NCBI GenBank assembly: GCA_902786855.1
Contig: CADAEH010000001.1
Location: 62,001 to 126,000, forward strand
Reading direction: 5' to 3'
Length of the DNA stretch: 64,000 nt
Origin: an uncultured Eubacteriales bacterium
GTDB taxonomy: Bacteria; Bacillota; Clostridia; Peptostreptococcales; Anaerovoracaceae
How positions within the stretch are numbered: position 1 is the stretch's first letter; each line of letters starts with the position of its first letter. A program made the translations under genes and the position numbers. The notes beneath the pieces were generated by a model. That model ran no database searches. It was not told the origin of the DNA and saw nothing but the letters and a program-made list of their open reading frames with translations. Of this stretch, positions 11,413-27,843 are shown one piece after another.

Positions 11413-11449
11413 GTCCGGACCCTGATAATAAGTTTTCAAAGCATTGAAA

Positions 11450-11600: not shown

Positions 11601-12962
11601 CTATTTGTGCTCTCTTTTTCTGAAATACAGGACAGCCGCTATATCAATTACAACAGCTATGATCCATGACAGCACCTCGGCAGCAGGCAATACATCCGAT
11701 CCGAGTGCCTTATACCCTAAGTAGGCAAGGAGCAGCCGGCCCGCAAGTCCGGTGATGGAGGCTGCTGATGTTATGCCTGTATGTTTTGCACCGTTAAGGA
11801 ATCCATGGAATACAAACTGCAGGCCGAATATCCAGTAGAACGGGATGCATACCAGAACATATCTGTAACCGATCCCGGCTACCGCATCATCAAGACCGAA
11901 CAGTGTAAACAGCGGATATCCGAACTTCCACAGAACCAGTGACATGACGACGGAAAAGACCACGGCTGCTGCGCTGCTGATCCTGAGCGTCTGCCTGACT
12001 CTGTCAGGCTTTTCTGCACCGATATTCTGCCCGACAAAAACAGCTACTGCCGTAGACATGCAGAAGATCGGGATAAGAAGAAGCGAGTCGACTTTGAACG
12101 CAACCGTAACTCCGATAACGACACCCGCCCCGAGAATATTCGTTATGTTCTGCAGCAAAACGTTTCCGGCTGATGATACCACTGACTGCAATATCTGCGG
12201 TATGCTGAGGTCAATGCACTCTCTGACATCTGATTTTGATCTGCCGGCTGTTACTTCACTGTCATCTCCCGGCTCTGCGGAGCCCGGCAGCGATCTGCGC
12301 CTGTCCTCGAGTCTGATCCACAGATATGCTGCCGAAAGCATTTCAGCTGCAACTGTAGCTATAGCTGCCCCGGTTATCCCGAGATCCAGCGCAACGACAA
12401 AGAGCAGATCAAGACCGATATTGACTGCACTTGAAACGGCCATGCCTCCGAGCGGTCTCTTGCTGTCACCCATACCTCTCAGGACTCCGGCCTGAAGACT
12501 GTACAATGCAGTGAAAGGAACACCTGCAAAATTTATCCTGAGATATCTCGCCGCTCCCCCAAACAGGGTGTCCGGGGTATGTATGAGTCTCAGCAGCTGC
12601 GGTGTGAATAAGAAAGCGATGGCAGCTATGATCAGTGAAAATATTATGATCAGTCTTCGTATGTCTTTTATCAGTATCCCAAGGTCCCGGTACTTTCTTG
12701 CTCCGTGCAGATGAGATACCATGATGGAACATCCTCCTGCCAGACCAAGCTGTATCAGTGTGCAGATATCCAGGATCGAGGAACAAGTGCTCACTGACCC
12801 AAGAGCTTCCTGGCTTATCGCATTGCCGAGGATCAGACCGTCTGCTATCGCATAAGACTGCATCAGCAGGCTTGAAAGCATCAGGGGTATCATGAACGCA
12901 ATAAAAGAAGGAAGCAGCGCTCCATCTGTTATGTTGTTTACTGCTTCCTTCCGGTATTCCAT
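11601..12962 (-). CDS. MATE family multidrug/metabolite efflux protein
   Basis: A 453-residue protein with about twelve hydrophobic segments in two similar halves, the MATE layout. The first half contains PLMLSSLLMQSYAIADGLIL and the second SIPQILQSVVSSAGNVLLQN, the paired MatE motifs. MATE proteins export organic cations or metabolites using Na+ or H+ gradients. It starts five bases after the stop of the CdhC/AcsB-like gene, so it is probably the last gene of the dehydratase-type locus transcribed from the right, before the hairpin at 11450-11480. The substrate is unknown. Confidence 0.9.
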   Translation of the reverse strand: MEYRKEAVNNITDGALLPSFIAFMIPLMLSSLLMQSYAIADGLILGNAISQEALGSVSTCSSILDICTLIQLGLAGGCSIMVSHLHGARKYRDLGILIKDIRRLIIIFSLIIAAIAFLFTPQLLRLIHTPDTLFGGAARYLRINFAGVPFTALYSLQAGVLRGMGDSKRPLGGMAVSSAVNIGLDLLFVVALDLGITGAAIATVAAEMLSAAYLWIRLEDRRRSLPGSAEPGDDSEVTAGRSKSDVRECIDLSIPQILQSVVSSAGNVLLQNITNILGAGVVIGVTVAFKVDSLLLIPIFCMSTAVAVFVGQNIGAEKPDRVRQTLRISSAAAVVFSVVMSLVLWKFGYPLFTLFGLDDAVAGIGYRYVLVCIPFYWIFGLQFVFHGFLNGAKHTGITSAASITGLAGRLLLAYLGYKALGSDVLPAAEVLSWIIAVVIDIAAVLYFRKREHK

Positions 12963-12967
12963 GTTTC

Positions 12968-13705
12968 CTAGCCTTTGAATTCCTTTTTCTCTTTTCCGAA
13001 GTGGAGTTCCTTGAGTCCTTCTACTTCATCGCAGATCTCTCTGAGGCTGCAGCTGTGACAGTCTGTAGCCATCCCTTCGAGGATCTTCGAAAGAGTCATC
13101 GTGATGTCTCTTGTCTTTTTCGCATCAGCTCTCATTCCGGCATAATCGGCATCATCTGCTGTGACGAAGATCATTTTGACAGCAACTATATTAGGATTCT
13201 GCTTATACTGCCTGATGTATGAATTGCCGACCTGCTCGAAAGTGATACCCTTTCTTACAGCTTCCTTAGAGACTCTCACCTGCTCACGGAAGCTGTCGGA
13301 AGAGGATCTGATCATGTAGCCTTTAGGATATACATGATATTTTACAAAGTCAATATCCTGTATCGCTCTGAAGAGAGGTTCTGTATCCTCTTCTCCCTCG
13401 CCGTCAAGGACATTGACCTTGATGACAGCTATCCTGGCAAAAGGAACGCTGCCACTGATATGATTGAGATCGCGTCCGTATACAAGGATCTCGTCTTCCT
13501 CTGCATAATCGCCCGAAGTAACGCATGCATAATGTACAGCAGGCTTGTTGTCGCCGCCCAGCTCATATGCGGATTCTCTCATCATGACCAGCTGGTTGCC
13601 GCCTACATCTTCCCAGGTTTTATTCGGATCATACTTGTAGCGTTTCGGCTGCGAACTGCCGAGCATGCCGTCGATCTTTTCTATAATAGTGTTATACAGT
13701 TCCAT
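12968..13705 (-). CDS. Protein resembling the N-terminal half of acetyl-CoA synthase (CdhC/AcsB), A-cluster part absent
   Basis: 245 residues from the ATG at 13703-13705, chosen because GGAGAG lies five bases upstream; in-frame ATGs further out have no such site. Several segments line up with my memory of CdhC/AcsB: a 'GrDLN...' turn (YGRDLNHISGS), IAVIKVNVLDGEG, an EPLF..I.D.DF.KY block, RVSKEAVRKG, and IVAVKMIFVTADD. In CdhC these precede the cysteine-rich A-cluster domain. That domain is missing; the protein ends instead with CHSCSLREIC (CxxCx4C) and EVEGLKELHFGK. The CxxCx4C could hold an iron-sulfur cluster or another metal. It lies in a run with a dehydratase-type activator and a CooC-like ATPase. 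Homology is by eye, so the family call is moderate and the function unknown. Confidence 0.55.
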   Translation of the reverse strand: MELYNTIIEKIDGMLGSSQPKRYKYDPNKTWEDVGGNQLVMMRESAYELGGDNKPAVHYACVTSGDYAEEDEILVYGRDLNHISGSVPFARIAVIKVNVLDGEGEEDTEPLFRAIQDIDFVKYHVYPKGYMIRSSSDSFREQVRVSKEAVRKGITFEQVGNSYIRQYKQNPNIVAVKMIFVTADDADYAGMRADAKKTRDITMTLSKILEGMATDCHSCSLREICDEVEGLKELHFGKEKKEFKG

Positions 13706-13799
13706 TTCTCTCTCCATGAGTGGAGCTTTCACTGCGCCTGCGCATTTTCCAGAACGGAAAACGTGCATAACGTCTCTGAATACTCCCGAGTATACATAC

Positions 13800-13824
13800 T
13801 GCCCCCGCATCTGGTGCGGGGGCA
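13800..13824 (-). other. GC-rich hairpin in the leader of the CdhC/AcsB-like gene
   Basis: Perfect 10-base arms TGCCCCCGCA and TGCGGGGGCA flank a five-base loop. On the minus strand no T-run follows, so it looks like a processing or stability hairpin between the 60-residue microprotein gene and the CdhC/AcsB-like gene. On the plus strand it is followed by CTTTT but no gene reads into it. Confidence 0.5.
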
Positions 13825-13843
13825 GCTTTTGACTTAATGTCTG

Positions 13844-14026
13844 TCAGAACTTGATGTCTACCGGTTTGCGGTCGAAAATCTCATTGACTCTCGCATATGA
13901 CCAGGCAAGCACCTTCTGGTCGAGGTTGAGCATATAGACCATGAAGAGCGCTCCTGTAGCGATGCAGCCAACCTTAACTGTTGTGCCGACTACCTTGCAG
14001 ACAGGACATTTTTTCTTCTTTGCCAT
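13844..14026 (-). CDS. 60-residue CxxC membrane microprotein
   Basis: Starts at the ATG at 14024-14026, behind AAAGGAG six bases upstream. The layout is a basic N-terminus with a Cys pair (AKKKKCPVCK), one membrane span (about residues 17-38) and a tail with LNLDQKVLAWSY. The span and the LNLDQKVL block resemble the 86-residue protein at 20952-21212 (VGTLVAAYAGLFCVF, then FDLDGKLLYYV), so the two are paralogues. Each lies just downstream of a dehydratase-type gene. A membrane anchor or electron-transfer adaptor for the iron-sulfur proteins is my inference; I do not recognise a named family. Confidence 0.7.
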   Translation of the reverse strand: MAKKKKCPVCKVVGTTVKVGCIATGALFMVYMLNLDQKVLAWSYARVNEIFDRKPVDIKF

Positions 14027-14088
14027 GTTGTGCTCCTTTCGGGATTGCAACAAGGTTTACCACCAGTGTGATGGATCCTTATTGACTC

Positions 14089-14880
14089 TTACTTAGCCTG
14101 TCCCTTCTGGCGAGCGAACTCAGCAGCGCCGAGAGCTCCCATCAGCTGAGGGTCTGTCTTGAGGTTGATAACCTTGAGCTTGAGAACGTGTTCGATAGCG
14201 TCCTTAAGACCATCGTTCTTAGCGCATCCGCCTGTCAGTGTGATGGAATCGGTAGCGCCGGCCTTCTTAGCCATTACGAAACATCTCTTAGCAACAGCCA
14301 TCTGGATGCCTGCAGCGATCTCGTCCATTGGCTTGTTCTCACCAACGAGTGTGATTACTTCAGACTCAGCGAATACTGTGCACTGTGCTGTGATAGGAAT
14401 CACGTTCTTAGCTGTGAGTGACAGTCTTGAGAACTCAGGAAGAGTCATCTCGAATGATCTTGCCATAGCTTCGTAGAATCTGCCTGTTCCGGCAGCGCAC
14501 TTATCGTTCATAGCGAAGTTCTTGACTGTTCCGTCTGTATCGACTGCGATACCCTTAACGTCCTGTCCGCCGATATCGATGATAGCCTTTACGGATGGAT
14601 CGGTTACGTGTACGCCCATAGCGTGGCATGAGATCTCGGAGATGTTCTCATCAGCGAAAGGAACCTTGTTACGTCCGTATCCTGTTCCGATGAGGTATGC
14701 GAGTTCCTTGGAGGACTTCAGGCCAACCTTGCCCAGTACTTCGTCCATAGCCAGTCTTGCGGAAGCCTCGGAATTGATCTTGCTCTTGATTGTGGTATCA
14801 GCTACGATCTTGCCGTTCTCGTCAAGAATAACTGCCTTAGTATAAGTTGAACCTACATCACAGCCGCCATAATATTTCAT
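14089..14880 (-). CDS. Activator ATPase of 2-hydroxyacyl-CoA dehydratase / benzoyl-CoA reductase type (HgdC/BcrA family)
   Basis: 263 residues from the ATG at 14878-14880 (AAGGAG upstream); the open frame extends 18 codons further out without a ribosome binding site. The ASKHA-fold ATPase motifs are GGCDVGSTYTK (5-15) and DIGGQDVKG (102-110). The two cysteines that hold the homodimer-bridging [4Fe-4S] cluster in this family are present: Cys128 in NDKCAAGTGRF and Cys167 in AQCTVFAESE. Family role: ATP hydrolysis drives single-electron transfer at very low potential from ferredoxin into a dehydratase or reductase heterodimer. It follows the pair at 14992-18044 and is the only activator in the window, so it may serve all three pairs. 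Confidence 0.92.
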   Translation of the reverse strand: MKYYGGCDVGSTYTKAVILDENGKIVADTTIKSKINSEASARLAMDEVLGKVGLKSSKELAYLIGTGYGRNKVPFADENISEISCHAMGVHVTDPSVKAIIDIGGQDVKGIAVDTDGTVKNFAMNDKCAAGTGRFYEAMARSFEMTLPEFSRLSLTAKNVIPITAQCTVFAESEVITLVGENKPMDEIAAGIQMAVAKRCFVMAKKAGATDSITLTGGCAKNDGLKDAIEHVLKLKVINLKTDPQLMGALGAAEFARQKGQAK

Positions 14881-14991
14881 AACTATCTTCTCCTTTTTAG
14901 TCACTTTTATCGAATAAAGTTCTATGCTGCCCACATTATATTCACTAACATGGGTATTGTAAACTATTTTTTAACAAACGGTCAGTTTTAA

Positions 14992-16854
14992 CTACATTGA
15001 GGTCTCGTCATCGAACTCTTCCAGTGTAGGGTCGATAGGCTCGGCTCTCATGACTGTTCTCATGTATTCGTTGACCTTGCCTCTCATATTCTTTCTGGAA
15101 ACTGTTCTTGGGTCCATCAGATCGTGCTCGATCCAGATCATGTGATAGTTCTTGTCTCTGCACTGATCATCGAGGATACCCTGCAGTGTAGCCATGTTCT
15201 TGCATGCTACGTTCTGGTACATGATGATGATCTCAGCTCTCCAGTCTTCGACCTGTCTCCAGAGCTCGTCTACGACGTTATGATATCCGCCGTTGGTATG
15301 TCTTCTCATTACCATACGCTCGTAGAGTCTTGCGAGGTCCATGAGAGCCTCTTCCTTATCCTCTGTCTCGAGGACCTTGGTGAAGTTGAGGGATTCCATC
15401 TCTACCAGGATGTCGATTCCCCAGCAGTTAGCCAGCCAGTTGCTGAAATTAGCATAGTAGTGTGCCGGGCAGGACCATACGATTCCTCTGTACTTCATCT
15501 TGCCGCGCCATGCTTCTTCGCGTCTCTCGTAAGCCTTCATCATGATGTCGTTGACCTTTTCGAAGGTCCTCATGGTACGAGGGTCGGCACCGCCGTCCAT
15601 CTCGTAGTTCCACTTACGGAAGAGCTCGTAGCAAGGTCCGATGATCTGAGGATAATCGGTCTTGTTGACTTCCCACTTCTGCAGCTCGTAAGCGGTCTCT
15701 TCATTGAAGCGCTTCATCTGCTTGAAGTAGTTGTCCCAGCTCCACTTAGCGCCTGTAACTTTCTCAACGAATTTGATGCAGCCCTTGATGTCTTCAACAG
15801 CATCCTGAGTAGTCTCTTCGTATTCGTATCTTACAGGGAATGTCAGATGATATACCGGAAGATCCGGGAATCTTCTCGACATGTATTCGGAAGCCATTAC
15901 CGAACCGTCGCATGGCATCGAGCTTGAGATGAAGCATGATCCCATGTGTGGCAGAGCGTCGATTACGAGCGCGCCGCATTCTGAACTCGGTACCGGACAG
16001 GTATCAGCAGGGAGTCCGAAACTCTCGACTGCATCGATGTATGGGATACATGTGAGCTGGTCGATCTCGGATACCAGGAATACCGGCATCAGCTGATAAG
16101 GGATACCTACCAGATCAGGGAATCCTGCCATGATCTGTCCCATTGTCATCTCGTCGAAGAGAACGACTTTCTTGTTAAGTTCGGAATTACCGTTCTTGGC
16201 ATCGCACTTAGCAAGGAATACGAGGTTCTCAGCAACATAGCGGAAAATGTCGAAGATCATCAGATGTGACATTCTCAGTGCGCTGCCCTTCTGGCCGAAT
16301 GTGTTCTTGTCCATGAAGCCTACGCAGCAGAAGTATGAGATCATCCATCTGTAGTACAGTGCGGAGTTGAGCGCAGGTACGAGATCCTTTGAGAATGTCA
16401 TGAGGAGCATGCCCCACATTCTGAGCCATTCTTTGAAGTCGTATGCTGTATCTACAGCACCCTTCCACTCTCTTCTTACTGTAGCCATGTCGCCCTTGCG
16501 GTAGAGCTTACCGAGGGTCTTTTCTCCGTGGAGGAATACGTCCTTGAGTTCTGCAGGGCTCATCTCTTTTGCCTGCTTAAGCTCGAGAGCGCATCTTGCA
16601 AGATCATCCTTGCATCTGTCGAGCTGGAGCTTTGCGAAAGCTTTGTAGTCAGCTTCCTTGGCCATCTCCATGCAGATACCGGCTACCTCCATGAAGTTCT
16701 TGCCCTGTGCTTTCCAGTCGATATGGTCCTTGGCGCGGAAGAATGCAGGGTTAGGATATTTCACTTTGCCCTTTGCAGCAGCCTTCTTAGCCCTGGCTTC
16801 TTTCTTTTCGGCAAGAGAGTTCCTGATGCCGAGCAATTCTGTGCTTAATACCAT
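14992..16854 (-). CDS. Large subunit A, HgdA/BcrB-like iron-sulfur protein (620 residues)
   Basis: Member of the 2-hydroxyacyl-CoA dehydratase / benzoyl-CoA reductase / double-cubane-protein superfamily. The three cluster cysteines fit the family pattern: Cys286 in PADTCPVPSSE, Cys315 in SMPCDGS and Cys551 in VACKNMATLQG. At 620 residues it exceeds typical subunits (about 380-480). The extra length is an N-terminal helical, Lys/Ala-rich region (about 1-125) and a C-terminal block ending near AEPIDPTLEEFDD. The segments VRREWKGAVDTAYD and ANCWG, the exact 70-residue distance from the third Cys to the C-terminus and the EP(I/L)DP tail all recur in the large subunits at 21228-22865 and 25037-26641. 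Its start overlaps the stop of its small-subunit gene by one base (TAATG). Substrate unknown. Confidence 0.88.
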   Translation of the reverse strand: MVLSTELLGIRNSLAEKKEARAKKAAAKGKVKYPNPAFFRAKDHIDWKAQGKNFMEVAGICMEMAKEADYKAFAKLQLDRCKDDLARCALELKQAKEMSPAELKDVFLHGEKTLGKLYRKGDMATVRREWKGAVDTAYDFKEWLRMWGMLLMTFSKDLVPALNSALYYRWMISYFCCVGFMDKNTFGQKGSALRMSHLMIFDIFRYVAENLVFLAKCDAKNGNSELNKKVVLFDEMTMGQIMAGFPDLVGIPYQLMPVFLVSEIDQLTCIPYIDAVESFGLPADTCPVPSSECGALVIDALPHMGSCFISSSMPCDGSVMASEYMSRRFPDLPVYHLTFPVRYEYEETTQDAVEDIKGCIKFVEKVTGAKWSWDNYFKQMKRFNEETAYELQKWEVNKTDYPQIIGPCYELFRKWNYEMDGGADPRTMRTFEKVNDIMMKAYERREEAWRGKMKYRGIVWSCPAHYYANFSNWLANCWGIDILVEMESLNFTKVLETEDKEEALMDLARLYERMVMRRHTNGGYHNVVDELWRQVEDWRAEIIIMYQNVACKNMATLQGILDDQCRDKNYHMIWIEHDLMDPRTVSRKNMRGKVNEYMRTVMRAEPIDPTLEEFDDETSM

Positions 16855-18044
16855 TACTTCTTGCCTCCTTTCTGGATCTTCTTGATCTCAAGAGATTCGA
16901 CGAACGCCTGGAATCTTGTTCTCAGCTGTCCGGATCCTCTAGCGTTGTACAGTCTGTCTATGGACAGTACCGGCCATCCGTATTCTTCTGCCATGATGTG
17001 GCTGACGAGAGCTCTTTCGAATCCCCAGAAGTCGCAGTATTTCATCTGCTCATAGATGATACCGTCTGCTTTGAATTCCTTGGCCAGTCTGTCGGCTGTC
17101 TCTCTTCTCTGCTTTACCTTGTTGTCAGCGATGTAGCGTGCGCACTCAGAAGTGTTCATGTAGTGGCGAACGATCTGAGGAAGTGCGTCTTCCTTGTCGG
17201 AAAGCTCGATGACTTCTCTGCCAGGAATGGATCCGAAGCAGTGTCTGTCGAACACTACTCTTGCGCCTGCGTCCTCGATCATCTTGGTGAATTCAGGGTC
17301 ATCGATCTCGGAACCGACGATGCCGACTCTTGCTCTAGGGAGAACCTTGTCAGGTTTTCTCTTCTTGAGCTCTGCCAGTGTCTCTTTGAGATAAGGCAGG
17401 ATGAGGTACTTAGGACATGTGTAGCTGACGAGGTTCAGGATGTGGAACTCGTATCCTGTGATAACCGGGTTCTCTTCCTTACGCATCTCGCTGATCTCCT
17501 GTATCACAGCACAGACCTCATTGTGCAGGGCAACTGCTTCGCGGATCTTGGCATCAGAGATGTCTGTTCCAAGATGCTCTTTCATAGCATCAAGCAGTCT
17601 TACCTCAAGCTGTCTCTGCATGTGCTTGTAGGAGAAGTCCTCGGTCTTGTAAGGAACGTCCAGGATCGGCAGGAAGAAGTGATCTTTGTCGTTGCACTTG
17701 AGGATGCTGAAATGCTCATAGAATCTGTTCATCATGGAGCATGCATCAACTCCGGCAATGCCGTCAAGGAACTGGTATCCGCCTTCGATAGCTCTTTCCA
17801 GAAGAGCACGTGCAAATTCGCAGACGTAGTTCGACATATAGTATGTGGAAATATCTATCGATCCGGTTCTAGGTGCACGCATTCTTACGGAAACGCAGTT
17901 GTCAACGTTCAGAAGAACTTCAGGGATGTGATAGCAAGTGTATCCCATGATCATCTTGCCGTCTTTCTTCGCCTGTTCAACGAGCTCGTTGTCTGCATTG
18001 TCCAGAAGACTCTCGAAGTAGATCATATGCTTCAAGTCTTTCAA
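16854..18044 (-). CDS. Small subunit A, HgdB/BcrC-like iron-sulfur protein
   Basis: 396 residues. It begins with a TTG codon (18042-18044) behind GGGAGG; this start is supported by the M(K/R)DLKH.(I/L)YFE N-terminus shared with the paralogues at 22868-24058 and 26641-27843, which use ATG. Cysteines at 37 (GYTCYHIPE), 75 (NYVCEFARALLER), 102 (DACSMMNR) and 337 (KYCDFWGFER) are candidate cluster ligands; the first three are at identical positions in all three paralogues. The C-terminal SGQLRTRFQAFVES matches the family signature of dehydratase/benzoyl-CoA reductase subunits. It forms a presumed heterodimer with the 620-residue protein. Confidence 0.88.
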   Translation of the reverse strand: MKDLKHMIYFESLLDNADNELVEQAKKDGKMIMGYTCYHIPEVLLNVDNCVSVRMRAPRTGSIDISTYYMSNYVCEFARALLERAIEGGYQFLDGIAGVDACSMMNRFYEHFSILKCNDKDHFFLPILDVPYKTEDFSYKHMQRQLEVRLLDAMKEHLGTDISDAKIREAVALHNEVCAVIQEISEMRKEENPVITGYEFHILNLVSYTCPKYLILPYLKETLAELKKRKPDKVLPRARVGIVGSEIDDPEFTKMIEDAGARVVFDRHCFGSIPGREVIELSDKEDALPQIVRHYMNTSECARYIADNKVKQRRETADRLAKEFKADGIIYEQMKYCDFWGFERALVSHIMAEEYGWPVLSIDRLYNARGSGQLRTRFQAFVESLEIKKIQKGGKK

Positions 18045-18070
18045 TGTTATACAACCTCCCTCTTAAATAT

Positions 18071-18147
18071 GGTGACAAGGGACGGTTCTGTTGCCACCTG
18101 TTTATTGATTCTTTTAAGGTGACAAGAGAACCGTCCCTGCTGCCACC
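18071..18147. repeat. REP-like inverted repeat pair
   Basis: Two units (18071-18098 and 18118-18147) are inverted relative to each other. Each starts GGTGACAAG and ends TGCCACC, and the cores GGGACGGTTCT and AGAACCGTCCC are reverse complements. The units are separated by 19 bases. Terminal GGTGACA/TGCCACC and the GGGACGG core resemble the extragenic palindromes mobilised by REP-associated tyrosine transposases in many bacteria. It lies in the 114-base gap between the cooC-like gene and small subunit A, where the folded RNA could stabilise or separate transcripts. Confidence 0.75.
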
Positions 18148-18158
18148 TGTATAACAAG

Positions 18159-18926
18159 TTATATGAGCTGCATCTTTCTGAGAGCTTCACGTGTCCCAAC
18201 CATTACCGGTGAATCCGCCGGCAGGTCGAATACGCTGATGCCCATGATGTCGTTGTCGGAGTGTGCCTTGTCTTCCGGGATGTATGCAAGGATCTCTGCC
18301 GACTCGACTTTTACATATGGAATGGACTCTTCTTTCACCCTGTTGACGATGACGCCGCACTTGTCGTACATGACGAGCTCGTCAGCAACGCTCTTGATCG
18401 TGTCCACTACCTTGCAGCCCTTACGGCTCGGGTCAGTTATGAGGAAAAGGTGTGTGACCTTTTCCATGACGCGGCGGTTGATCTGTTCGATCCCCGCCTC
18501 GCCGTCGATTACTACATAGTCGAAGTCGTTGGCCAGCAGGCTTATGACTTCTTTCAGATAAGCATTGACCTTACAGTAGCACCCTGCTGCCTCCGGTCTG
18601 CCTATGGCGAGAAAACTGAATCTGTTTTCCTCTACCATGGTGTCGAAGATCCTGAATCTGGCCTCGTTGAGCATCTCGATCGCTTCTTTGGGCCGGCCGT
18701 CCTCTACACTGCCGACGATCTTCTTTCTGATGCCGTCGAGTGTATCAGTCGGCTCAACACCGAGAGCAGTCGTCAGCCCGATAGCGGGGTCAGCATCGAT
18801 GGCAAGTATCCTCGAGTCAGGGTATTCCTCAGTGAGGATCCTCACCATAGCCGAAGAGATCGAAGTCTTGCCGACTCCTCCCTTGCCTGCCACTGTTAAG
18901 ATCTTAGTATCACGCTTATCACTCAT
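18159..18926 (-). CDS. cooC: CooC-type nickel-maturation ATPase
   Basis: 255 residues of the MinD/ParA-like P-loop class. The deviant Walker A AGKGGVGKT is at about 13-21, the DADP switch at about 45-48 and the Walker B region VVIDGEAGIEQ further on. The Cys-x-Cys in GCYCKVNAYLKE (Cys116, Cys118) matches the metal-binding CxC that distinguishes CooC from MinD and other relatives. CooC binds nickel at a dimer interface and matures carbon monoxide dehydrogenase or acetyl-CoA synthase. No CODH gene is in the window, so it may serve a distant enzyme or the iron-sulfur proteins beside it. It stands 74 bases after htpG and before the REP pair and subunits A. Confidence 0.82.
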   Translation of the reverse strand: MSDKRDTKILTVAGKGGVGKTSISSAMVRILTEEYPDSRILAIDADPAIGLTTALGVEPTDTLDGIRKKIVGSVEDGRPKEAIEMLNEARFRIFDTMVEENRFSFLAIGRPEAAGCYCKVNAYLKEVISLLANDFDYVVIDGEAGIEQINRRVMEKVTHLFLITDPSRKGCKVVDTIKSVADELVMYDKCGVIVNRVKEESIPYVKVESAEILAYIPEDKAHSDNDIMGISVFDLPADSPVMVGTREALRKMQLI

Positions 18927-19000: not shown

Positions 19001-20917
19001 TTAGAAGAATGAGCAGACGATGTCTGTGTAACCAGACGGATCGTTGATCGGAAGTCCTGCTATCAGGAGAGCCTGATTGAGCAGCACTTCGCACATCTTC
19101 TTAGCCCTCTCCGGGTCATCGAGCCTCGCTCTGTCGAGAGCAAGGAACGCTTTGTGATCCACGTTGAGTTCGAGTATCCTCTTGGCCTTCATTCCGAGAT
19201 CAGGATTGACAGCCGTGAAGTATTTCTCCATCTCGAACGTGATACCGTCTCCGCTTGAGAGACACACCGGATGGGTCTTGAGCTTGGTGGTCGCTTTGAC
19301 GACATCGACCTTGTCTCCGAGAGCTTCCTTGACAAAATCAAAGGTGTCCTTGAACGTCTCGTTCATCTTCTCTTCTGACTTTCCATCGCCGAGATCGAAG
19401 TCTCCGTCTATGACCGACATGTACTTCTTGTCCTTGTAGGTTCTGAACATGTCGGAGATGAACTCATCCGTGCTTTCGGTGAAATACAGGATCTCGATGC
19501 CCCTGTCCTTGAGGACTTCCGTCTGAGGCATCTTGTCTACCGCCTCGAGGCTGTCGCCGCTTGCGTAGTAGATGTATTCCTGATCCTCTTTCATCCGATC
19601 AACATACTCAGCAAGTGTGACGAGCTTCTTCTCTGTCGAGGAGTAGAACATCAGGAAATCCTGGAGCTCTTCCCTGTACTTGCCGTAGTCATCGAGAGCA
19701 CAGAGCTTGAGCTGGCGGCCAAAGCTCTTGTAAAACTTCTCGTATTTCTCACGGTCTTTGTCCCGCATATCTTCGAGCTTGCCGCGGATCTTTTTCTCGA
19801 GATTTTTCGAGATAAGCCTCAGCTGCCTGTCGTGCTGCAGCACCTCTCTTGAGATATTGAGCGAGAGATCAGGAGAGTCAACGACGCCCCTGACGAAGTT
19901 GAAATACTCAGGGAGCAGTTCTTTGCACTTCTCCATGATGAGTACGCCTGAGCTGTAGAGCGAAAGCCCTCCGGTAAAGTCGTCTGTATAGTACTTGTTA
20001 GGTACGAGCTCAGGGATGAACATCAGAGCATCATAGCTTACCATGCCTTCGACCGAGACAGTGATCGTCTCGAGCGGCGGTGTGTCATCCTGGAACGTCG
20101 ACTTGTAGAACTCTTCGTACTCTTCCCTGGTGACATCTGCGCGCTTTCTCTGCCACAGAGGCACCATGGAGTTGAACACTTCATATTCCCAGACCTCTTC
20201 ATACTCAGGATTCTCAGGGTCGGATCCCTCTTTGACCTGTGGATGAGGCATCAGCATCTTGATAGGGAAGCGGATGTAGTCAGAGTACTTCTTGACGAGT
20301 TTGTATATAGGGTACTCTCTCATGTACTGGCTGAATTCATCGGCGTCCTCGCCATCCTCTCTGATGTGCATGATGACATCAGTTCCGTGACCGTCTCTGT
20401 CTGCAGGCTCTATAGTATAGCCTCCTGCACCCTCGGATACCCATCTGTAAGCCTGGTCTTCACCATACTTCTTACTGACCACTTCGACCTTGTCGGATAC
20501 CATGAATGCGGAATAGAATCCTACTCCGAACTGTCCGATGATATCTACCTGGTCTGCCATGCTCGCAGCGGCGGTTCCGGTCTTTTCCTTGTCAGCTTTC
20601 TCGATCTCTTCTGAAAACTTCTTGCTGCCTGAGAAAGCGATGGTGCCGAGGTTCTTCTCGAGTTCTTCTTCGTTCATACCGATCCCGTTGTCGCTGACCG
20701 TGAGAGTACGATTCTCTTTATCGAGAGTCAGGATGATCTCAAAATCGCTGCGGCTCATTCCTACTGACTTATCGGTGAGTGCCAGATAGCACATCTTGTC
20801 GATGGCATCTGATGCGTTGGAGATGATCTCACGCAGAAAGATCTCCTTGTGCGTGTAGATCGAGTTGATCATCATGTCCAGCAGACGCTGGGATTCGGCT
20901 TTAAACTTCTTCTTCAT
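19001..20917 (-). CDS. htpG: HtpG, bacterial Hsp90 chaperone
   Basis: 638 residues, the normal length. The GHKL ATP-binding domain carries REIISNASDAIDK, TVSDNGIGMNEEEL and GQFGVGFYSAFMVSDKVEV in the first 150 residues. The middle domain has VVDSPDLSLNISREVLQ, and the dimerisation domain follows. ATP-driven folding chaperone. It lies 34 bases after the 86-residue microprotein gene and 74 bases before cooC, so it looks embedded in the same transcript as the dehydratase-type genes, an uncommon place for a general chaperone. Confidence 0.96.
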   Translation of the reverse strand: MKKKFKAESQRLLDMMINSIYTHKEIFLREIISNASDAIDKMCYLALTDKSVGMSRSDFEIILTLDKENRTLTVSDNGIGMNEEELEKNLGTIAFSGSKKFSEEIEKADKEKTGTAAASMADQVDIIGQFGVGFYSAFMVSDKVEVVSKKYGEDQAYRWVSEGAGGYTIEPADRDGHGTDVIMHIREDGEDADEFSQYMREYPIYKLVKKYSDYIRFPIKMLMPHPQVKEGSDPENPEYEEVWEYEVFNSMVPLWQRKRADVTREEYEEFYKSTFQDDTPPLETITVSVEGMVSYDALMFIPELVPNKYYTDDFTGGLSLYSSGVLIMEKCKELLPEYFNFVRGVVDSPDLSLNISREVLQHDRQLRLISKNLEKKIRGKLEDMRDKDREKYEKFYKSFGRQLKLCALDDYGKYREELQDFLMFYSSTEKKLVTLAEYVDRMKEDQEYIYYASGDSLEAVDKMPQTEVLKDRGIEILYFTESTDEFISDMFRTYKDKKYMSVIDGDFDLGDGKSEEKMNETFKDTFDFVKEALGDKVDVVKATTKLKTHPVCLSSGDGITFEMEKYFTAVNPDLGMKAKRILELNVDHKAFLALDRARLDDPERAKKMCEVLLNQALLIAGLPINDPSGYTDIVCSFF

Positions 20918-20951
20918 TTTGTGATAACTTCTTTCTATATCCTGTAACTAT

Positions 20952-21212: not shown

Positions 21213-21227
21213 CGGACGGTCTCCTTT

Positions 21228-22865
21228 CTACCAGCTATCGATATCGTCAAAGTCGAGCAGTGACGGATCGAGCGGTTCTTCTCCCATTACAGTGAACATG
21301 TAGTCGTTGATGATCTGTCTGATCTGCGATCTAGGAACTGTTCTCTTGTCAGGCAGAGCGTGAGGCATCCAGATAGCGTGGATATTTCTTGCTCTGAACT
21401 CGTCCTCGAAGAGTCCTACGACACCCTGCATGCCCTTGCACTGCAGCTGGTCGTACATCATGACCATGTCGCAGTTGAACTTTTCCATGTTTTCCCAGAG
21501 TTCGAAGATGTGCTGCAGTCCTCCTACAGCCATTCTTCTCATCGGAGCCCATTCATGATATTTCGCGATATCCAGCAGACAGTTCTCATAAGTATCTGTC
21601 CTGATGTCAAGGTCGAACATCAGCGAGTCCATGTTGATGATGGTGTTGAGGCCCCAGCAATTGTAAGCCCATGTGCACCATGCAGAGTAGTACAGCGGAG
21701 CGCATGACCATGCGATGACTCTGTGTCTCGTCATCGGGAAGGTGTTGATGTCTTCATTTACGCACTTCTCCATGATCTTCTTGACGCGTCTGTCAACATC
21801 ATGCCAGAAAGGTCTCTCACCGTACTGCGAGTAGAAGATCCTGTACAGAGCCTGAGCTACACCATTGATAGGATAGCTGTGAGTATTCGCAGCTACATCC
21901 CATTTCTCTCTCTCGAACTGGTTCTGCTTGTTCTGCAGCTCGATGTGCTTCTTGAGCTCTTCCCAGTGGAACTCAAGTCCGGTCTGCTCTTCCATGAATC
22001 TCCATGCCAGCTCGATCTCCTTGGCGCAGTTTTCGAGAACGGAATCGTCATCGAACTGCATGACCTGCGGCATCGCGAAGAGCGGCTTGTTCATCATCCA
22101 GTCCTGAATGACGGATGTACCTACCGAGCTGTCGCAGGCTTCGTTCGTCGTGACCATCGCGACGAATGAATCAGGAACATCATCCTCGATGTAGATGCCG
22201 GCCTCGGCCTGGCACATCGGGCAAGGGTCGCCCGGAAGTCCGTATGCCTGGACCGCGTCGATGTAGTTGAGTACTGTGTGGTTGTTGCAGTGGCATGTTA
22301 CGAAGTACGGGATCATCTGTGTTGGCAGGTAATAGCCGCCCTGATCCATGTACGGATAGATGATGCCGCCCCATACTGTCTCGTCTGTACCGATTGTCTT
22401 CGCTCTGAGAGCCGGATCTCCGCCGATGTTGAGGTCTCTGTTGAAGAATCCGGTGATCTGGTACAGGCATGCACTTGTGATCCCTCTGAAGTGCCATGCG
22501 GAAGCTTTGAGTGTCTCGCCTCTCATACCCTCGAGGCATCTGTCGAACCAGTGCATTACGGTCAGGTATGTCTGACCCATCCATCTGTATCTCCATGTTC
22601 CCTTGAGGAACTGGATCGCGCCCTTAGGACCGCCGCCGTATACCATGAGGTCATGTACGATCATTCCGTAGTTGTACAGCCAGATGTTATTGAAGTAGTA
22701 CATGGTATCCTTGATACCACGCCACTCTCTGTGTTTATACAGACCTGTCTTAGGGATATACAGGTCTCCGAGTCTTCTCTCTCCATGAGGCTTGCCGTAG
22801 ACAAAATCCCTGGCAGCCTTCTTGAAGTCGACCTCTTTGAGTTTCTTCAGATCAGGTTTCTTCAT
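21228..22865 (-). CDS. Large subunit B, HgdA/BcrB-like iron-sulfur protein (545 residues)
   Basis: Paralogue of the large subunits at 14992-16854 and 25037-26641. Cluster cysteines: Cys215 in PGDPCPMCQAEAG, Cys244 in NEACDSS and Cys476 in LQCKGMQG. An extra Cys at 218 makes a CPMC pair absent from the other two, which read CPVP and CPMP. The N-terminal HREWRGIKDTMYYF and the tail GEEPLDPSLLDFDD are shared with the paralogues. Upstream, the small subunit gene ends two bases before the start; downstream is a membrane microprotein. No separate activator gene accompanies this pair. Substrate unknown. Confidence 0.87.
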   Translation of the reverse strand: MKKPDLKKLKEVDFKKAARDFVYGKPHGERRLGDLYIPKTGLYKHREWRGIKDTMYYFNNIWLYNYGMIVHDLMVYGGGPKGAIQFLKGTWRYRWMGQTYLTVMHWFDRCLEGMRGETLKASAWHFRGITSACLYQITGFFNRDLNIGGDPALRAKTIGTDETVWGGIIYPYMDQGGYYLPTQMIPYFVTCHCNNHTVLNYIDAVQAYGLPGDPCPMCQAEAGIYIEDDVPDSFVAMVTTNEACDSSVGTSVIQDWMMNKPLFAMPQVMQFDDDSVLENCAKEIELAWRFMEEQTGLEFHWEELKKHIELQNKQNQFEREKWDVAANTHSYPINGVAQALYRIFYSQYGERPFWHDVDRRVKKIMEKCVNEDINTFPMTRHRVIAWSCAPLYYSAWCTWAYNCWGLNTIINMDSLMFDLDIRTDTYENCLLDIAKYHEWAPMRRMAVGGLQHIFELWENMEKFNCDMVMMYDQLQCKGMQGVVGLFEDEFRARNIHAIWMPHALPDKRTVPRSQIRQIINDYMFTVMGEEPLDPSLLDFDDIDSW

Positions 22866-22867
22866 GT

Positions 22868-24058
22868 CTACTTAACCTCCTGTATCTTCTTGAGCTCTAC
22901 GCTCTCAACGAATGCCTGGAATCTTGTTCTGAGCTGTCCGGATGCCGTGTTGATGTACTCCTTCTCGATGGAGCATACCGGATATCCGAAGTCTCTAGGC
23001 AGAACGATCGTGTCGATCATTCTCTCAAAGCTCCAGTATTCGCAGAACTTATTGGATTCAACGATGATACCGTCTGCCTTGTACTCCTTTGCATAATCAG
23101 CGAGCACCTTCTTGCGGCGCCTCATCTCCTGCTGCTCCATGAATCTAGCGCACTGGCTTGTCAGCAGGTAATGTCTGGCAACTGCTGTCAGAGGATCTTC
23201 TCCATCCTTGATGTCGATATGCTGTCTGGCCTCGAGCGAGCCGTAACAGTGTCTGTCGGCTACTACGAGAGCTCCGCAGCCTTCGATCAGCTTGATGAAG
23301 TCAGGGTCATCGTTCTCAGAACCCGCGAGAAGCACCTTGATCTTATAATTAGGCTTGTCATCAGGCTCTCTGGTCTTGAGCTCCTCAAGTGTCTCTCTCA
23401 GCTTATCTACGATCAGGTATTTAGGACATACCATTGAGACCAGTGTGATGACGCTGAACTCGTAACCTGTGATGGTCGGATTGTCGAGTTTGCGGAAGTT
23501 ACCGATCTCAGTGATGATGTCGTTAACTTCGTTGTTGATCCTGATCGCCTTAAGGATAGCCTCGTCAGATGTATCGACTCCGAATTCCTTAGCAAGGAAA
23601 TCGAGGACTTTGATCTTCAGCTGCTTCCTGTAGTGATCGATACTGTTCTCATTCTTCTTGAACGGAACGTCGGTGAATGAAGTCTTGAACGTAGCGTTGT
23701 TGATAACGCCTTCCATGTAGTCGAGATGCTCCTGGAATCTGCATGTTACCGTGCAGGTCTCTGTGGCGAGCTGGGCGTCAATGAAATTGAATCCACCCTC
23801 AAGAGCTCTCTCGAGAAGTGATCTGCCGTAATGGCATGTACGACCGGACATATAGTATGATGCCATATCCGGCGATGTGCATTTAGGCGCTCTCAGTCTT
23901 ACTGCGAAGCAGCCAGGCAGATCGAGGAGGACCTCAGGCATGAAATAGCATGTGTAGCCGAGACACAGATTGCCGTCTTCCTTGCCCTTGCGCACGAGGT
24001 CATTATTGGCCTCCTGCAGCAGATCCTCAAAGTAGATCAGATGCTTTAAGTCACGCAT
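22868..24058 (-). CDS. Small subunit B, HgdB/BcrC-like iron-sulfur protein
   Basis: 396 residues, ATG start. Cys37 (GYTCYFMPE), Cys75 (GRTCHYGRSLLER) and Cys102 (ETCTVTCRF) occupy the same positions as in the other two small subunits, with a late Cys in NKFCEYWSFER. Extra cysteines at 32, 50, 60 and 106 make it the most cysteine-rich of the three. The C-terminal SGQLRTRFQAFVES is the family signature. It is the first gene of the B operon; the 400-base gap upstream separates it from the divergent histidine-rich gene and should hold its promoter. Confidence 0.87.
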   Translation of the reverse strand: MRDLKHLIYFEDLLQEANNDLVRKGKEDGNLCLGYTCYFMPEVLLDLPGCFAVRLRAPKCTSPDMASYYMSGRTCHYGRSLLERALEGGFNFIDAQLATETCTVTCRFQEHLDYMEGVINNATFKTSFTDVPFKKNENSIDHYRKQLKIKVLDFLAKEFGVDTSDEAILKAIRINNEVNDIITEIGNFRKLDNPTITGYEFSVITLVSMVCPKYLIVDKLRETLEELKTREPDDKPNYKIKVLLAGSENDDPDFIKLIEGCGALVVADRHCYGSLEARQHIDIKDGEDPLTAVARHYLLTSQCARFMEQQEMRRRKKVLADYAKEYKADGIIVESNKFCEYWSFERMIDTIVLPRDFGYPVCSIEKEYINTASGQLRTRFQAFVESVELKKIQEVK

Positions 24059-24458
24059 GGTGTATCACCTTTCCTCCCTCTCTTTTAATTACTTATTGGT
24101 AAGGAACCGCCTGCTGCGGTTTCATCTCAAAAACCACAAAAACCGTCTCAGGGCGCACTATCCCTTACAATATACTATTGGTATAATTTTAATGTTCTTG
24201 AGATAAAAGTGTCAATGAGATATACTCATGAAAACAGCGGAAAATGCAGGGATTTTTGTATTTTTTTAGAACTTGTTTTTCCACTTGTTCAGAATCCCCT
24301 ATATGGGGATAGAAAAGCTTAAAGACACACTATTTATGGTAACCACTTGTTTAAGCAACAGGCTGCAACGGGCACTCATAAAAACGCTGATTCACCCCTG
24401 TAGCTTTCCACGCGGTCACTATAGCAGCAGTATAAATCTATATCGGAGGACTTTAGAA
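24059..24458. promoter_or_regulatory. Divergent intergenic region with a C4/G4 palindrome
   Basis: The 400 bases between small subunit B (leftward) and the histidine-rich gene (rightward) are AT-rich and hold no gene. At 24294-24310 there is a perfect palindrome with C4 and G4 tracts around TATAT (ATCCCC-TATAT-GGGGAT). Paired C/G tracts around a short AT centre recall operators of CsoR/RcnR-type metal sensors, but this match is loose. On the plus strand the histidine-rich gene has a strong CGGAGGA site at 24445-24451. I could not settle on one clear -35/-10 pair in either direction. Confidence 0.45.
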
Positions 24459-24770
24459 ATGCATGACCATAACAGCCCACAGCACGCATCAGTAACTCAC
24501 TCCCACGAACATGACGGACACACTCATGTGCACACCCATGCTGACGGGACAACTCATTCACACTCTCATGCGACGGCTTCTTCTCCTGAAGAGGCTCTGG
24601 CACTTCTGACATACATGCTGAACCATAACAGGCATCATGCAGAGGAACTTCACGACCTTGCTCACTGCTTTGATGAGGTCTCAGGCGACCTGGTCCATGA
24701 AGCCGTCGACAAGCTCGAAGAGAGCAACGCGCTTCTTGAGCAGGCTCTGTCACTGCTTAAGAATCAGTAA
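24459..24770 (+). CDS. Histidine-rich putative metal-binding protein
   Basis: 103 residues from the ATG at 24459, behind CGGAGGA; the longer upstream frame lacks a ribosome binding site. The first 37 residues contain 13 histidines in HxH clusters (THSHEHDGHTHVHTH), typical of nickel, cobalt or zinc storage segments. Residues 41-103 form a helical hairpin-like domain with more histidines (NHNRHHAEELHDLAHC) and a leucine-rich end. Short proteins of this build are sometimes labelled 'cobalt transporter' in clostridial annotations, but no transport segment is present. It is the only rightward gene between 11.6 and 29 kb, divergent from pair B. A role in nickel or cobalt supply for this locus is inference, fitting the CooC-type gene. 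Confidence 0.75.
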   Translation: MHDHNSPQHASVTHSHEHDGHTHVHTHADGTTHSHSHATASSPEEALALLTYMLNHNRHHAEELHDLAHCFDEVSGDLVHEAVDKLEESNALLEQALSLLKNQ

Positions 24771-24798
24771 TATCCGCATATTTCAGGCAAAACAAAAG

Positions 24799-24828
24799 TG
24801 CAGCCGCTTTTATGCATAAGCGGCTGCA
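24799..24828. terminator. Bidirectional terminator between convergent genes
   Basis: Perfect 11-base arms (TGCAGCCGCTT and AAGCGGCTGCA) enclose an eight-base loop. On the minus strand it is followed by CTTTTGTTTT, and on the plus strand by an AT-rich run. It lies 28 bases after the histidine-rich gene stop and 24 bases after the end of the small leftward ORF at 24853-24975, so it can end both transcripts. Confidence 0.85.
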
Positions 24829-24852
24829 TATTAATTTGTTCCTGTTTGCGGC

Positions 24853-24975
24853 TTATTCTTCCCCGCTTTCCGGTGTTTCCCGGTCATTGACACACAGAGA
24901 CAGTGACAGCACCATCACCAGCAGCAATGATATTAACTTTCCTGATATTTTCATATCGGACAGATCTTTTTCCAT
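24853..24975 (-). CDS. Possible 40-residue lipoprotein-like peptide downstream of large subunit C
   Basis: A short frame with ATG at 24973-24975 and stop at 24853-24855, beginning 61 bases after large subunit C. It reads as a charged start, a second Met, a hydrophobic stretch (GKLISLLLVMVLSLSLC) and an acidic tail (VNDRETPESGEE). LSLC followed by a polar tail could be a lipobox, or the stretch could be a single span. Position matches the membrane microproteins that follow pairs A and B, but sequence similarity to them is not evident. GAAAGG lies upstream at fair spacing. Coding status is uncertain. Confidence 0.4.
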   Translation of the reverse strand: MEKDLSDMKISGKLISLLLVMVLSLSLCVNDRETPESGEE

Positions 24976-25036
24976 TTCCGGGCCTTTCACCGATCAGCTG
25001 TTACAAGCCTTAACTAAGCGTCTTCAAAATGTGTTT

Positions 25037-26641
25037 TTACCACATGTTCTCATCAGGGATGTTCTCGAGAGTCGGATCGAGCGGTTCTTCGCGGAGTACT
25101 GTACGCATGTATTGGCTGAACTCATCACGGATAGCCTGGCGGGTGTATACACGAGGGTCGCAGAGGTCATGGCATACCCATACGACATGGATGCCTCTTT
25201 CTCTGCCCTGCTCCTCGAACATTCCGTGGAGTCCGTCAAGAGCTTTGCAGGACATGTGCTCCCACATCATGACCATATCGGCGTTCATCTTCTCGCAGAA
25301 CTCCCAGAGCTCATCTACGAGAACCTTGTATCCGCCGTGTGTACGGTTTCTCATGATCATGTTCTCGTTGAGCCATGCCATGTCGTAATATGCTTTCTCT
25401 CTGTTCTCCGGAGTATCCTCTTCATTGATCATCTTGGTGTTGACCATTGAAAGCATATCTGTCAGAGGCAATACGCCCCAGCAGTTGATCATCCAGTAGA
25501 GCATGTGGATGTTGTACTGAGGCTGCACGCCCCAGATGATACATCTGTGCCTGTATTCAGGCGCCATCATGGTCTTTCTCTTGTAACCTCTCTGGACGAG
25601 CTTGGTTATTTTCCTGTCGATCGGCGGGAAAAGCGGCGATCTGCCGCAGTTGCCCATGTAGTTGGTATCATTGTAAAGCGAGAATACCGAACCCACGAAC
25701 TGCGGATAATCCGTACAGTTGATGTCCAGCCATTCCTGACGGTGGCGGGTAGCATCATTGACTCTCGCGGCACTTTCGAAGTATCTCTTCCAGTTCCACT
25801 TCTCTCCGGCATGATCTTCTACGAATTTTATCGCAGCCTTGATATCATTAGCGGCATAGTCCTGTACGTCATCTTCGCGGTGACGCATAGGAGCAGCCAG
25901 CTGGAATGTCGGGATGCCGTATTCTCTCTCGAGTCTGCTTGCTATGACGCCGTTACCCATCAGGGATCCATCACAGGTAGTGTTGACCTGTACTGCGCAG
26001 CATCCGAGTACGGCAAAATCATCGTCGATGGAGATGCCGGCCTCTGCCTCAGGCATCGGGCATACATCTCCAGGGATACCGAATTCCTGAGCGACATCGA
26101 GATAGTGCGTCGTCGAATACTGAGTCAGGAGGTTGGCAACGAACATTGTAGGCACCTCTCTGAGGATAGCCTTGGTCTCGTCAAAACCCATCATGAACGC
26201 TGTCATAGCATTCTCGTCAGTGAGTACGCAGTGGCTTGAGTACTCTTCGTCATTGCCTGTCCTGCGGTCGCCTCTGAAGATGTTGTCCATCGTCTGGGCA
26301 ACGTCATATATGACGAAGTTCATTGCAGTATGAGTGATGCGGAGCGGCTCGTCACGCAGTCCCATCGTGAACTTGTCCATCATATGCGGAACTGCAAGAT
26401 AGTTAGCCATCCATCTGTAGCGGAACATCGCCTTGACGTTACGCGGCTTGGATATGAACCTGGCGAGGATGGACATGATATACAGCCATCTTGTGTAATC
26501 GTAAAGTGTATCCTTGACACCTCTCCATTCGCGGCGCCTCATGACCTTGCTCTTGTTGTTGGTCGGATAGAGTTTGCCGAGATACTGGTCACCTTTGCGC
26601 TTCTTAGGGTTGGTGATCTTCTTAACCTGTTTGAATGCCAT
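25037..26641 (-). CDS. Large subunit C, HgdA/BcrB-like iron-sulfur protein (534 residues)
   Basis: Third large paralogue. Cluster cysteines: Cys194 in PGDVCPMPEAEAG, Cys223 in TTCDGSLMG and Cys465 in MSCKALDG. The N-terminal RRREWRGVKDTLYDY and the tail REEPLDPTLE match large subunits A and B, and the third Cys is again exactly 70 residues from the end. The segment equivalent to VWSCPAHYY of subunit A reads IWGVQPQYN, so one Cys conserved in A and B is lost. Its start overlaps the stop of its small-subunit gene by one base (TAATG). No activator gene adjoins it. Substrate unknown. Confidence 0.87.
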   Translation of the reverse strand: MAFKQVKKITNPKKRKGDQYLGKLYPTNNKSKVMRRREWRGVKDTLYDYTRWLYIMSILARFISKPRNVKAMFRYRWMANYLAVPHMMDKFTMGLRDEPLRITHTAMNFVIYDVAQTMDNIFRGDRRTGNDEEYSSHCVLTDENAMTAFMMGFDETKAILREVPTMFVANLLTQYSTTHYLDVAQEFGIPGDVCPMPEAEAGISIDDDFAVLGCCAVQVNTTCDGSLMGNGVIASRLEREYGIPTFQLAAPMRHREDDVQDYAANDIKAAIKFVEDHAGEKWNWKRYFESAARVNDATRHRQEWLDINCTDYPQFVGSVFSLYNDTNYMGNCGRSPLFPPIDRKITKLVQRGYKRKTMMAPEYRHRCIIWGVQPQYNIHMLYWMINCWGVLPLTDMLSMVNTKMINEEDTPENREKAYYDMAWLNENMIMRNRTHGGYKVLVDELWEFCEKMNADMVMMWEHMSCKALDGLHGMFEEQGRERGIHVVWVCHDLCDPRVYTRQAIRDEFSQYMRTVLREEPLDPTLENIPDENMW

Positions 26642-27843
26642 TATCTGTCACCTCCCTGCAGCTTTTTTATCTCAACGCTTTCAACGAATGCCTGGATACG
26701 TGTACGCATCTGCCCTGCTCCGCCGGCGATGTTGTACGGTCTGTCTACTGAAAGGACAGGGAAGCCGTAATCTTCACGGAGCATATGTGAACCGAGCATC
26801 CTCTCGTAAGCCCATGGATCGCAGAACTTGACCTGCTGATAGATGATACCGTCCGCTCCATATTCCTTCGCAATATCGTTGACGTATTTCTTGCGGCCGT
26901 ACACCTTGTCCATATTCATCATACGAGGGCACTGTCCCCAGTATACATAGTGGCGGCAGACCTGAGTCAGGATGTCTTCTTCGGAATTATCATCGATCAC
27001 GATAGGTTCCCTTCCCGGGAATGATCCGAAGCAATACCTGTCAGCACATACATAGGTATCACAGCCCTCGATCAGCTTGATGAACTCGACATCATCGACC
27101 TCGGAGCCGACCACCATGACGCGGGCACGCCACTTCTTACCGTCGGGCTCTCTGGTTTTGACCTCTTCAAGTGTCTCTCTCAGCTTATCTATGACCAGAT
27201 ATTTAGGTGCCACATATGTCGCAAGTGTGAATACTGCAAACTCGTAGCCTGTGATCCTCGGATCTGCTTCCTTACGGAATTCGCCCAGCTCTCTGAGCAG
27301 GCGGCACACTTCATTGTGCTCTTCCACAGCCTTGCGGATCGCCTCATCGGAGATATCGATACCGTATTTCTCATGCAGAGGCCTGAGAATGTGGTTCTTG
27401 CACTGCAGCACGAGCAGATCGACTCCATTCTCGTCAGCCTTGAGCGGTATCTCCATAAATTCATAGAAGAAGTTCTTCTTTCCTTCGTCCATTGTGTGCA
27501 GGAGATACATATTCTCTGCTGCACGGTTCATCATCGTGCAGCCGTCGGCTGCGATAAGGCAGTCGGCAAAATTGAAACCTCCTTCGATCGCTCTCTCCAG
27601 AAGTGCGCGGCTCGTCTCACACAGGAGATTGGTCATATAATATGTCGCAATATCCAGTGAGCCGGAATTAGGCGCAAAAAGACGAACTGAGAACGCATTG
27701 CCGAGGTTCATCAGCGGCTCCGGCAGGTTTTCACATGTGAAAGCTGCACAGATCTTCCCCTCGGACTTGGCCTGTTCGATCAGTTCGTTGTTAGCATTCT
27801 GGAGGAGATCCTCAAAATACAAAAGATGCTTAAGATCTTTCAT
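26641..27843 (-). CDS. Small subunit C, HgdB/BcrC-like iron-sulfur protein
   Basis: 400 residues, ATG start. Cys37 (AFTCENLPE), Cys75 (LLCETSRALLER) and Cys102 (DGCTMMNR) match small subunits A and B, with a late Cys in VKFCDPWAYER. The family C-terminal signature here is AGQMRTRIQAFVES. Cys50, present in A and B, is Ala. First gene of the C unit; an AT-rich leader of about 230 bases lies between it and the terminator of the next gene to the right, with a weak TTGAAA...TATACA pair (about 15-base spacing) on the minus strand near 27965-27990. Confidence 0.87.
   Translation of the reverse strand: MKDLKHLLYFEDLLQNANNELIEQAKSEGKICAAFTCENLPEPLMNLGNAFSVRLFAPNSGSLDIATYYMTNLLCETSRALLERAIEGGFNFADCLIAADGCTMMNRAAENMYLLHTMDEGKKNFFYEFMEIPLKADENGVDLLVLQCKNHILRPLHEKYGIDISDEAIRKAVEEHNEVCRLLRELGEFRKEADPRITGYEFAVFTLATYVAPKYLVIDKLRETLEEVKTREPDGKKWRARVMVVGSEVDDVEFIKLIEGCDTYVCADRYCFGSFPGREPIVIDDNSEEDILTQVCRHYVYWGQCPRMMNMDKVYGRKKYVNDIAKEYGADGIIYQQVKFCDPWAYERMLGSHMLREDYGFPVLSVDRPYNIAGGAGQMRTRIQAFVESVEIKKLQGGDR

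Follow-up and report, generated by a model that had tools for sequence, protein, structure and literature searches.

Clusters of the [8Fe-9S] double-cubane type are reportedly known only from the double-cubane protein DCCP and from BzdN, the small subunit of a class I benzoyl-CoA reductase (BCR), and BzdNO has been made in Escherichia coli complete with its double-cubane (PMC11971306). Both belong with the hydroxyacyl-CoA dehydratases (HAD) to one superfamily. Here we describe a gene cassette with members of this superfamily in a stretch of 64 000 nt (‘the window’) from an uncultured Eubacteriales bacterium of the Anaerovoracaceae (assembly GCA_902786855.1, contig CADAEH010000001.1, positions 62 001–126 000). 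Our favoured reading, to which we assign a probability of roughly 0.6, is that the cassette encodes an ATP-driven radical reductase system on its own branch of the superfamily. No description of the cassette was found in searches of the open-licence PMC literature (subscription papers lay outside this scope), nor one of its set of helper genes for BCR, HAD or DCCP, and the available parts of PMC10134865, PMC10418091, PMC13056359, PMC7306483, PMC7035244 and PMC5114307 contain nothing on it.

Subunits and activator of the cassette

The cassette genes all lie on the minus strand and are named SM1–3 for the small subunits, LG1–3 for the large subunits, ACT for the activator and CdhC-like for a protein with the middle domain of acetyl-CoA synthase (ACS):

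26641..27843, minus: SM3, small subunit of the double-cubane type; PF06050 E 9.5e-81; all six BzdN cluster cysteines aligned
25037..26641, minus: LG3, large subunit, BzdO/HadB-like; first ~95 residues unmatched in most structure rows
22868..24058, minus: SM2, small subunit; PF06050 2.5e-86; six cluster cysteines
21228..22865, minus: LG2, large subunit; PF06050 3.2e-28; four invariant cysteines
18159..18926, minus: CooC-type P-loop ATPase with a CxC metal motif; best PDB match CooC 3kje, E 4.6e-17
16854..18044, minus: SM1, small subunit; PF06050 9e-89; best PDB match BzdN 8s02_B, 1e-25
14992..16854, minus: LG1, large subunit; PF06050 8.9e-36
14089..14880, minus: ACT, activator ATPase of the BcrA/HgdC type; PF01869 1.6e-55; TIGR00241 211 bits, cut-off 125.4
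13844..14026, minus: 60-aa single-span membrane peptide, motif Y(F/W/M)xNLDxK; unannotated
12968..13705, minus: CdhC-like, stand-alone ACS middle-domain protein; C-terminal end CxxCx5C...H

The original prediction had named the six subunits and the activator, and these genes proved to be real and correctly placed, with PF06050 (HGD-D) above the Pfam cut-off in all six subunits (E 6.4e-27 to 9e-89) and PF01869 over 14089–14934. All three of the pairs it had counted were recovered in the window, but a fourth lies on contig C3, so that the genome (2.9 Mb, 62 contigs, 87% complete) holds four pairs of the cassette type; 12 of its HGD-D proteins are above the cut-off.

We observed that the small subunits stand apart from the characterized families, as had been proposed: 15 rows formed one clade with a support of 100/100, outside BzdN, HadC, DCCP and YjiM. 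Their scores stayed below the NCBIfam cut-offs for bzdN (77–107 bits, cut-off 453.8), BcrC (52–55 bits, cut-off 421.15) and HadC (79, 68 and 69 bits, cut-off 700) as well as for the DCCP model NF040772 (121–139 bits, cut-off 350). For the row sets in which invariant cysteines were counted we used only matches covering at least 85% of the query (for CdhC-like more than 200 aa), counted identical rows once, and applied extra filters to SM (>45% identity) and ACT (>60% identity or 300 bits). With BzdN as reference, the full set of six double-cubane cysteines was present in 14 of 14 complete small-subunit rows, while C36 and C263 are absent from both HadC rows, the only two that served as reference. 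Of the two reactions suggested earlier, low-potential reduction is supported; in view of these cysteines, dehydration is not supported as an equal option.

The large subunits carry most of the motifs originally read from them. Among 104 rows the (R/H)REW(R/K)G block was present in 103, and the tail EP(L/I/V)DP in 99 (TPLDP in 1; unmatched in four incomplete rows). Exactly 69 residues follow the third cysteine in 99 of the rows, which bears out the fixed spacing (70 in one row, four rows being incomplete). The supposed NCWG motif is in fact xCWG, where x is N in 43 rows, Q in 39, H in 21 and S in 1. The cysteine of this motif was considered as a fourth cluster ligand and dropped: MAFFT placed it near BzdN C263, but according to hhalign (weak, probability 14%) and the secondary structure of the model it closes the helix ahead of strand two in the C-terminal domain.

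The start of ACT used by relatives is ATG 14880, and a longer GTG frame reaches 14934. The cysteines in NDKCAAG and AQCTVF were invariant across 18 rows, and we take them to be the two bridging-cluster cysteines of acyl-CoA dehydratase activases. An activator of the window type (≥93% identical) was found in a single copy in 13 of the 16 genus genomes searched, and not in the other three (G002, G009 and G010, 71–86% complete), while 24 genus genomes had large-subunit matches, 2–7 each when fragments and weak matches of the DCCP type are counted. Within the genome itself, activator-family matches occur in the window, on C35 and C13, twice in one frame on C5, as a 145-aa piece on C17 and below threshold on C9. 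Since the C35 and C13 activators each adjoin other HGD-D genes, the window activator probably feeds the four pairs, in line with the idea that one activator serves several.

Helper genes and conservation of the gene order

The statement that pathway partners are lacking holds for the classical ones, but the CooC-type ATPase, the ACS middle-domain protein and the membrane peptide, which the original prediction had left off its list of parts, are conserved partners. The CYC of the CooC-like ATPase aligns to Cys112/Cys114 of CooC 3kje, whose roles are treated in the available part of PMC6006190, and these are its sole invariant cysteines in 17 rows. The CdhC-like protein adopted the ACS middle-domain fold in the fold test; it matches ACS only at positions about 306–467 of 705 (with the true ACS of G221 as the exception) and is devoid of the A-cluster domain. 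Its likely start is ATG 13705, the start in relatives, and a 12-pair hairpin (13799–13825) covers ATG 13810, which is listed as the start of a 280-aa frame.

Of the 41 loci (23 distinct places) in which ACT and the ACS-domain gene adjoin, 39 (21) encode the membrane peptide; it was located by an NLDxK-type pattern, so that conservation of the motif is partly by construction. Its hydrophobic 19-mer had a Kyte–Doolittle (KD) value of 1.73–3.52 in 21 of 21 distinct sequences, GAAAGGAG lies upstream of the frame, and the peptide scored below every Pfam and NCBIfam cut-off. The window peptide has an N-terminal CPVC; of the 21 distinct sequences, just those of L158 and L159, both Mogibacterium loci, share it.

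Next, we compared gene order in relatives, of which a scan returned at least 529 encoding stretches, the best 80 being retained. The recurring order is CooC, SM, LG, ACT, CdhC-like. It is complete in 11 loci (window, L093, L094, L095, L098, L100, L102, L120, L122, L123 and L185) and likewise in L188, L189 and L190, and the full-order loci span Mogibacterium, Lachnospiraceae, Solobacterium and other Clostridia. In other metagenome-assembled genomes (MAGs), for the most part labelled as Oscillospiraceae or Ruminococcaceae, contigs stop within ACT, and 8 of 9 such contigs tested showed the ACT remnant at the contig end beside the CdhC-like gene (88–96% identical). Pair 1 is absent between CooC and ACT in L042 and L194. 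Among the matches listed, the closest relative of LG3 is a goat-gut Mogibacterium MAG (97% identical over LG3), and the next ones are mostly Mogibacterium or Clostridiales MAGs from ruminants.

The pairs and the CdhC-like gene also co-occur. In a fixed sample of 291 Clostridia genomes, CdhC-like was found in 5, and full-length LG (E ≤1e-150) in the same 5, which belong to four families (Fisher p 6e-11, uncorrected for kinship); 24 more genomes gave weak partial LG matches only (best 1.7e-12). At the genus level LG was present in 24 of 25 genomes and CdhC-like in 22, one being a 20-aa scrap, while in 16 genomes at the order level we observed CdhC-like in none and weak LG matches only in 6. When genomes were reached via pair loci, CdhC-like was present in 17 of 18. 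CO dehydrogenase was found in 2 of 24 pair-carrying genomes and not in the other 22, this 87% complete genome included; CdhD was above the cut-off in 2 of 28 genomes (strongly in G221, by a partial match of 28.9 bits in G259; at E ≤0.001 the number is 6 of 28) and full ACS in 1 of 28. With these components so rare, neither CooC nor the ACS domain belongs to a CO dehydrogenase/ACS system in most of these genomes.

Proposed mechanism and alternatives

The gene set, the cysteine sets, the co-occurrence and the folds, as read from sequences and structural models, carry the reading of an ATP-driven reductase system, and from them we infer the electron path, the sharing of the activator and the roles of the helpers. 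The most economical path is the BCR route from activator to double-cubane to catalytic [4Fe-4S] cluster, with one activator for several pairs, plus helpers. Electrons would presumably come from ferredoxin or a flavoprotein (OYE- or GltD-like neighbours occur in some relatives) and enter the [4Fe-4S] cluster of the single ACT, where ATP hydrolysis would lower their potential. They would then pass to the [8Fe-9S] double-cubane of the small subunit and on to the large subunit, whose three-cysteine [4Fe-4S] cluster is the putative site of substrate reduction. The four paralogous pairs would depend on one activator and probably act on different substrates. The probable task of the ACS middle-domain protein is either to bind CoA (or a substrate carried on CoA) or to dock to the pair; a metal may be loaded by the CooC-type ATPase, and the small peptide would anchor the set at the membrane. 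As the double-cubane of BzdNO forms in E. coli, retention of the CooC-type ATPase is not explained by the double-cubane alone, and it is the main hint of an additional metal.

Several points weigh against this reading. That the ACS domain binds CoA is suggested by homology only. The catalytic His131 of BzdO has no counterpart in LG, where CDGS stands instead (the register is uncertain by one residue, and neither place has His); Glu65 of BzdO could not be aligned with LG. By sequence profile the best PDB match of LG is DCCP (2.4e-10), ahead of BzdO (2.4e-5). Sharing of the activator is read from a genome that is 87% complete and has the 145-aa activator-family piece on C17. Furthermore, the order is broken in L073 and L105, where the pair is placed after CdhC-like, one genome (L150/L179) has no ACT nearby, another (L152/L180) has CooC and CdhC-like without ACT, G334 has the pair but yielded no CdhC-like match, and the membrane peptide is absent in L042, L073 and, judged by spacing, L194.

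That the pairs are ordinary Had-type hydroxyacyl-CoA dehydratases for amino-acid fermentation, with neighbours acquired by chance, is very unlikely given the C36/C263 cysteines in all complete small-subunit rows and the HadC scores far from 700; moreover, the gene order recurs widely, and a distinct Had-type operon elsewhere in the genome comes with an activator and pathway genes of its own. In favour of a true class I BCR for aromatic acids from plant feed are BzdN as the top PDB match of SM1 (1e-25), the identical two-cluster layout and 8s02_C as the top fold match. However, every score is far below the BCR equivalog cut-offs, the catalytic His is absent, the cassette has one activator gene instead of two, and the scanned or read genes of the window included no recognizable classical aromatic-degradation gene, so that we regard this explanation as unlikely.

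Another view is that of a membrane lipid reductase comparable to plasmalogen synthase PlsA, for which the available part of PMC12838417 gives a precedent in describing PlsA as a member of the hydroxyacyl-CoA-dehydratase family that acts on lipids. The conserved membrane peptide would fit it, but the several divergent pairs per genome, the lack of a lipid gene in the cassette and the loci without the peptide make it improbable. In addition, a separate frame of 1517 aa elsewhere in the genome (contig C5, L023 13885–18435) contains two activator domains and presumably resembles PlsA in domain layout. A hidden non-canonical CO2/CO-fixing system, in which the pairs take the place of CO dehydrogenase, would account for CooC and ACS-domain genes accompanying pairs in genomes without detected CO dehydrogenase, and acetogenesis in a Lachnospiraceae without a recognizable one is reported in the available part of PMC7000372. 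We consider it highly improbable, however, given the rarity of CdhD and full ACS above cut-off (2 and 1 of 28 genomes), the missing A-cluster domain of CdhC-like and the poor fit of one fixed reaction to several paralogous pairs per genome. A rather doubtful variant of the reductase reading would merge a nitrogenase-like ATP-driven reductase with nickel parts of CO dehydrogenase/ACS: CooC would load nickel or another metal into the CxxCx5C...H site or the LG cluster, and the ACS domain would present a CoA-bound substrate, at the membrane, to the paralogous double-cubane enzymes. If true, the cassette enzymes would represent a new class, heterometal double-cubane reductases, with a wide distribution among ruminant-gut Clostridia.

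Surrounding genes and comparison with known systems

In Mogibacterium loci, HtpG (Hsp90; 19001..20917, minus) is the gene immediately upstream of CooC, and in L185 it lies close to the cassette; it is associated with the cassette, and we are unsure of its membership. The left end of the region as originally drawn, the MATE gene (11601–12962), was dropped as a cassette member since it had no match in the cassette-downstream stretches of 8 Mogibacterium relatives. The same applies to an AFOR-family gene (9847–11439, minus), whose C-terminal domain matched only partly, and to the Fec-type ABC transporter directly after it, for which just generic ABC-ATPase matches (33–36%) appeared in 3 of the 8. 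The window contained 20 terminator-like sites against 13.2 in shuffles, 22 promoter-like sites against 21.6 (no excess) and no match to Rfam families; LG3 had no match on plasmids, and the CdhC-like protein had no relative on viral contigs.

Elsewhere in the genome, the Had-type pair on C35 is part of an operon, as read by eye, that also comprises an activator of its own as well as CoA-transferase-like, dehydrogenase and acyl-CoA dehydrogenase genes; C13 has a DCCP-like gene with its own activator, and C5 a lone YjiM-like gene. The fourth pair on C3 is adjoined by LarE-like (by eye) and LarC C-terminal-half genes (L020 3031–4362), an arrangement seen only in this genome and G007 of 9 compared, and a nickel-pincer link was dropped. 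It is also adjoined by a 926-aa GltD-type flavoprotein with ferredoxin modules (L020 9417–12197). Relatives of this flavoprotein (48–50%) adjoin the cassette in L093–L095 and L100, and an OYE-type flavoprotein lies near it in L120, L123 and L185; both types are candidate electron donors.

The sister enzymes seem adapted to very demanding reductions driven by ATP and are probably served by one shared activator and three conserved helpers, two of them related to nickel-based CO-fixing machinery. The cassette would predict a further [8Fe-9S] kind, heterodimeric, paralogue-rich and with a defined helper set, in many gut bacteria, and may point to strong-reductant chemistry not yet known in gut fermentation. 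The stand-alone ACS middle domain and a CooC without CO dehydrogenase gain a testable context.

Compared with class I BCR (BzdNO, BcrBC, MbdON), the cassette has in common the six-cysteine small subunit, the three-cysteine large subunit, the ATP-driven activator and the two-subunit fold, but it differs in the N-terminal extension and the xCWG and EPxDP motifs of LG, in the His131 position, in its one activator gene and its CooC, ACS-domain and membrane-peptide partners, and in having several pairs per genome. HadBC and HgdAB share the fold, the [4Fe-4S] cysteines of the large subunit and a BcrA-type activator, whereas the cassette small subunit has all six double-cubane cysteines and no CoA-transferase or dehydrogenase partners were seen in the window. 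DCCP and YjiM likewise have six cysteines and one activator, but DCCP is a single gene forming a homodimer, in contrast to the small–large pair. With CooC of CO dehydrogenase the ATPase shares the P-loop and the CxC at the Cys112/Cys114 positions, although this client was not found in 22 of the 24 pair-carrying genomes; and unlike acetyl-CoA synthase, CdhC-like stands alone, without the A-cluster domain and with a short CxxCx5C...H tail.
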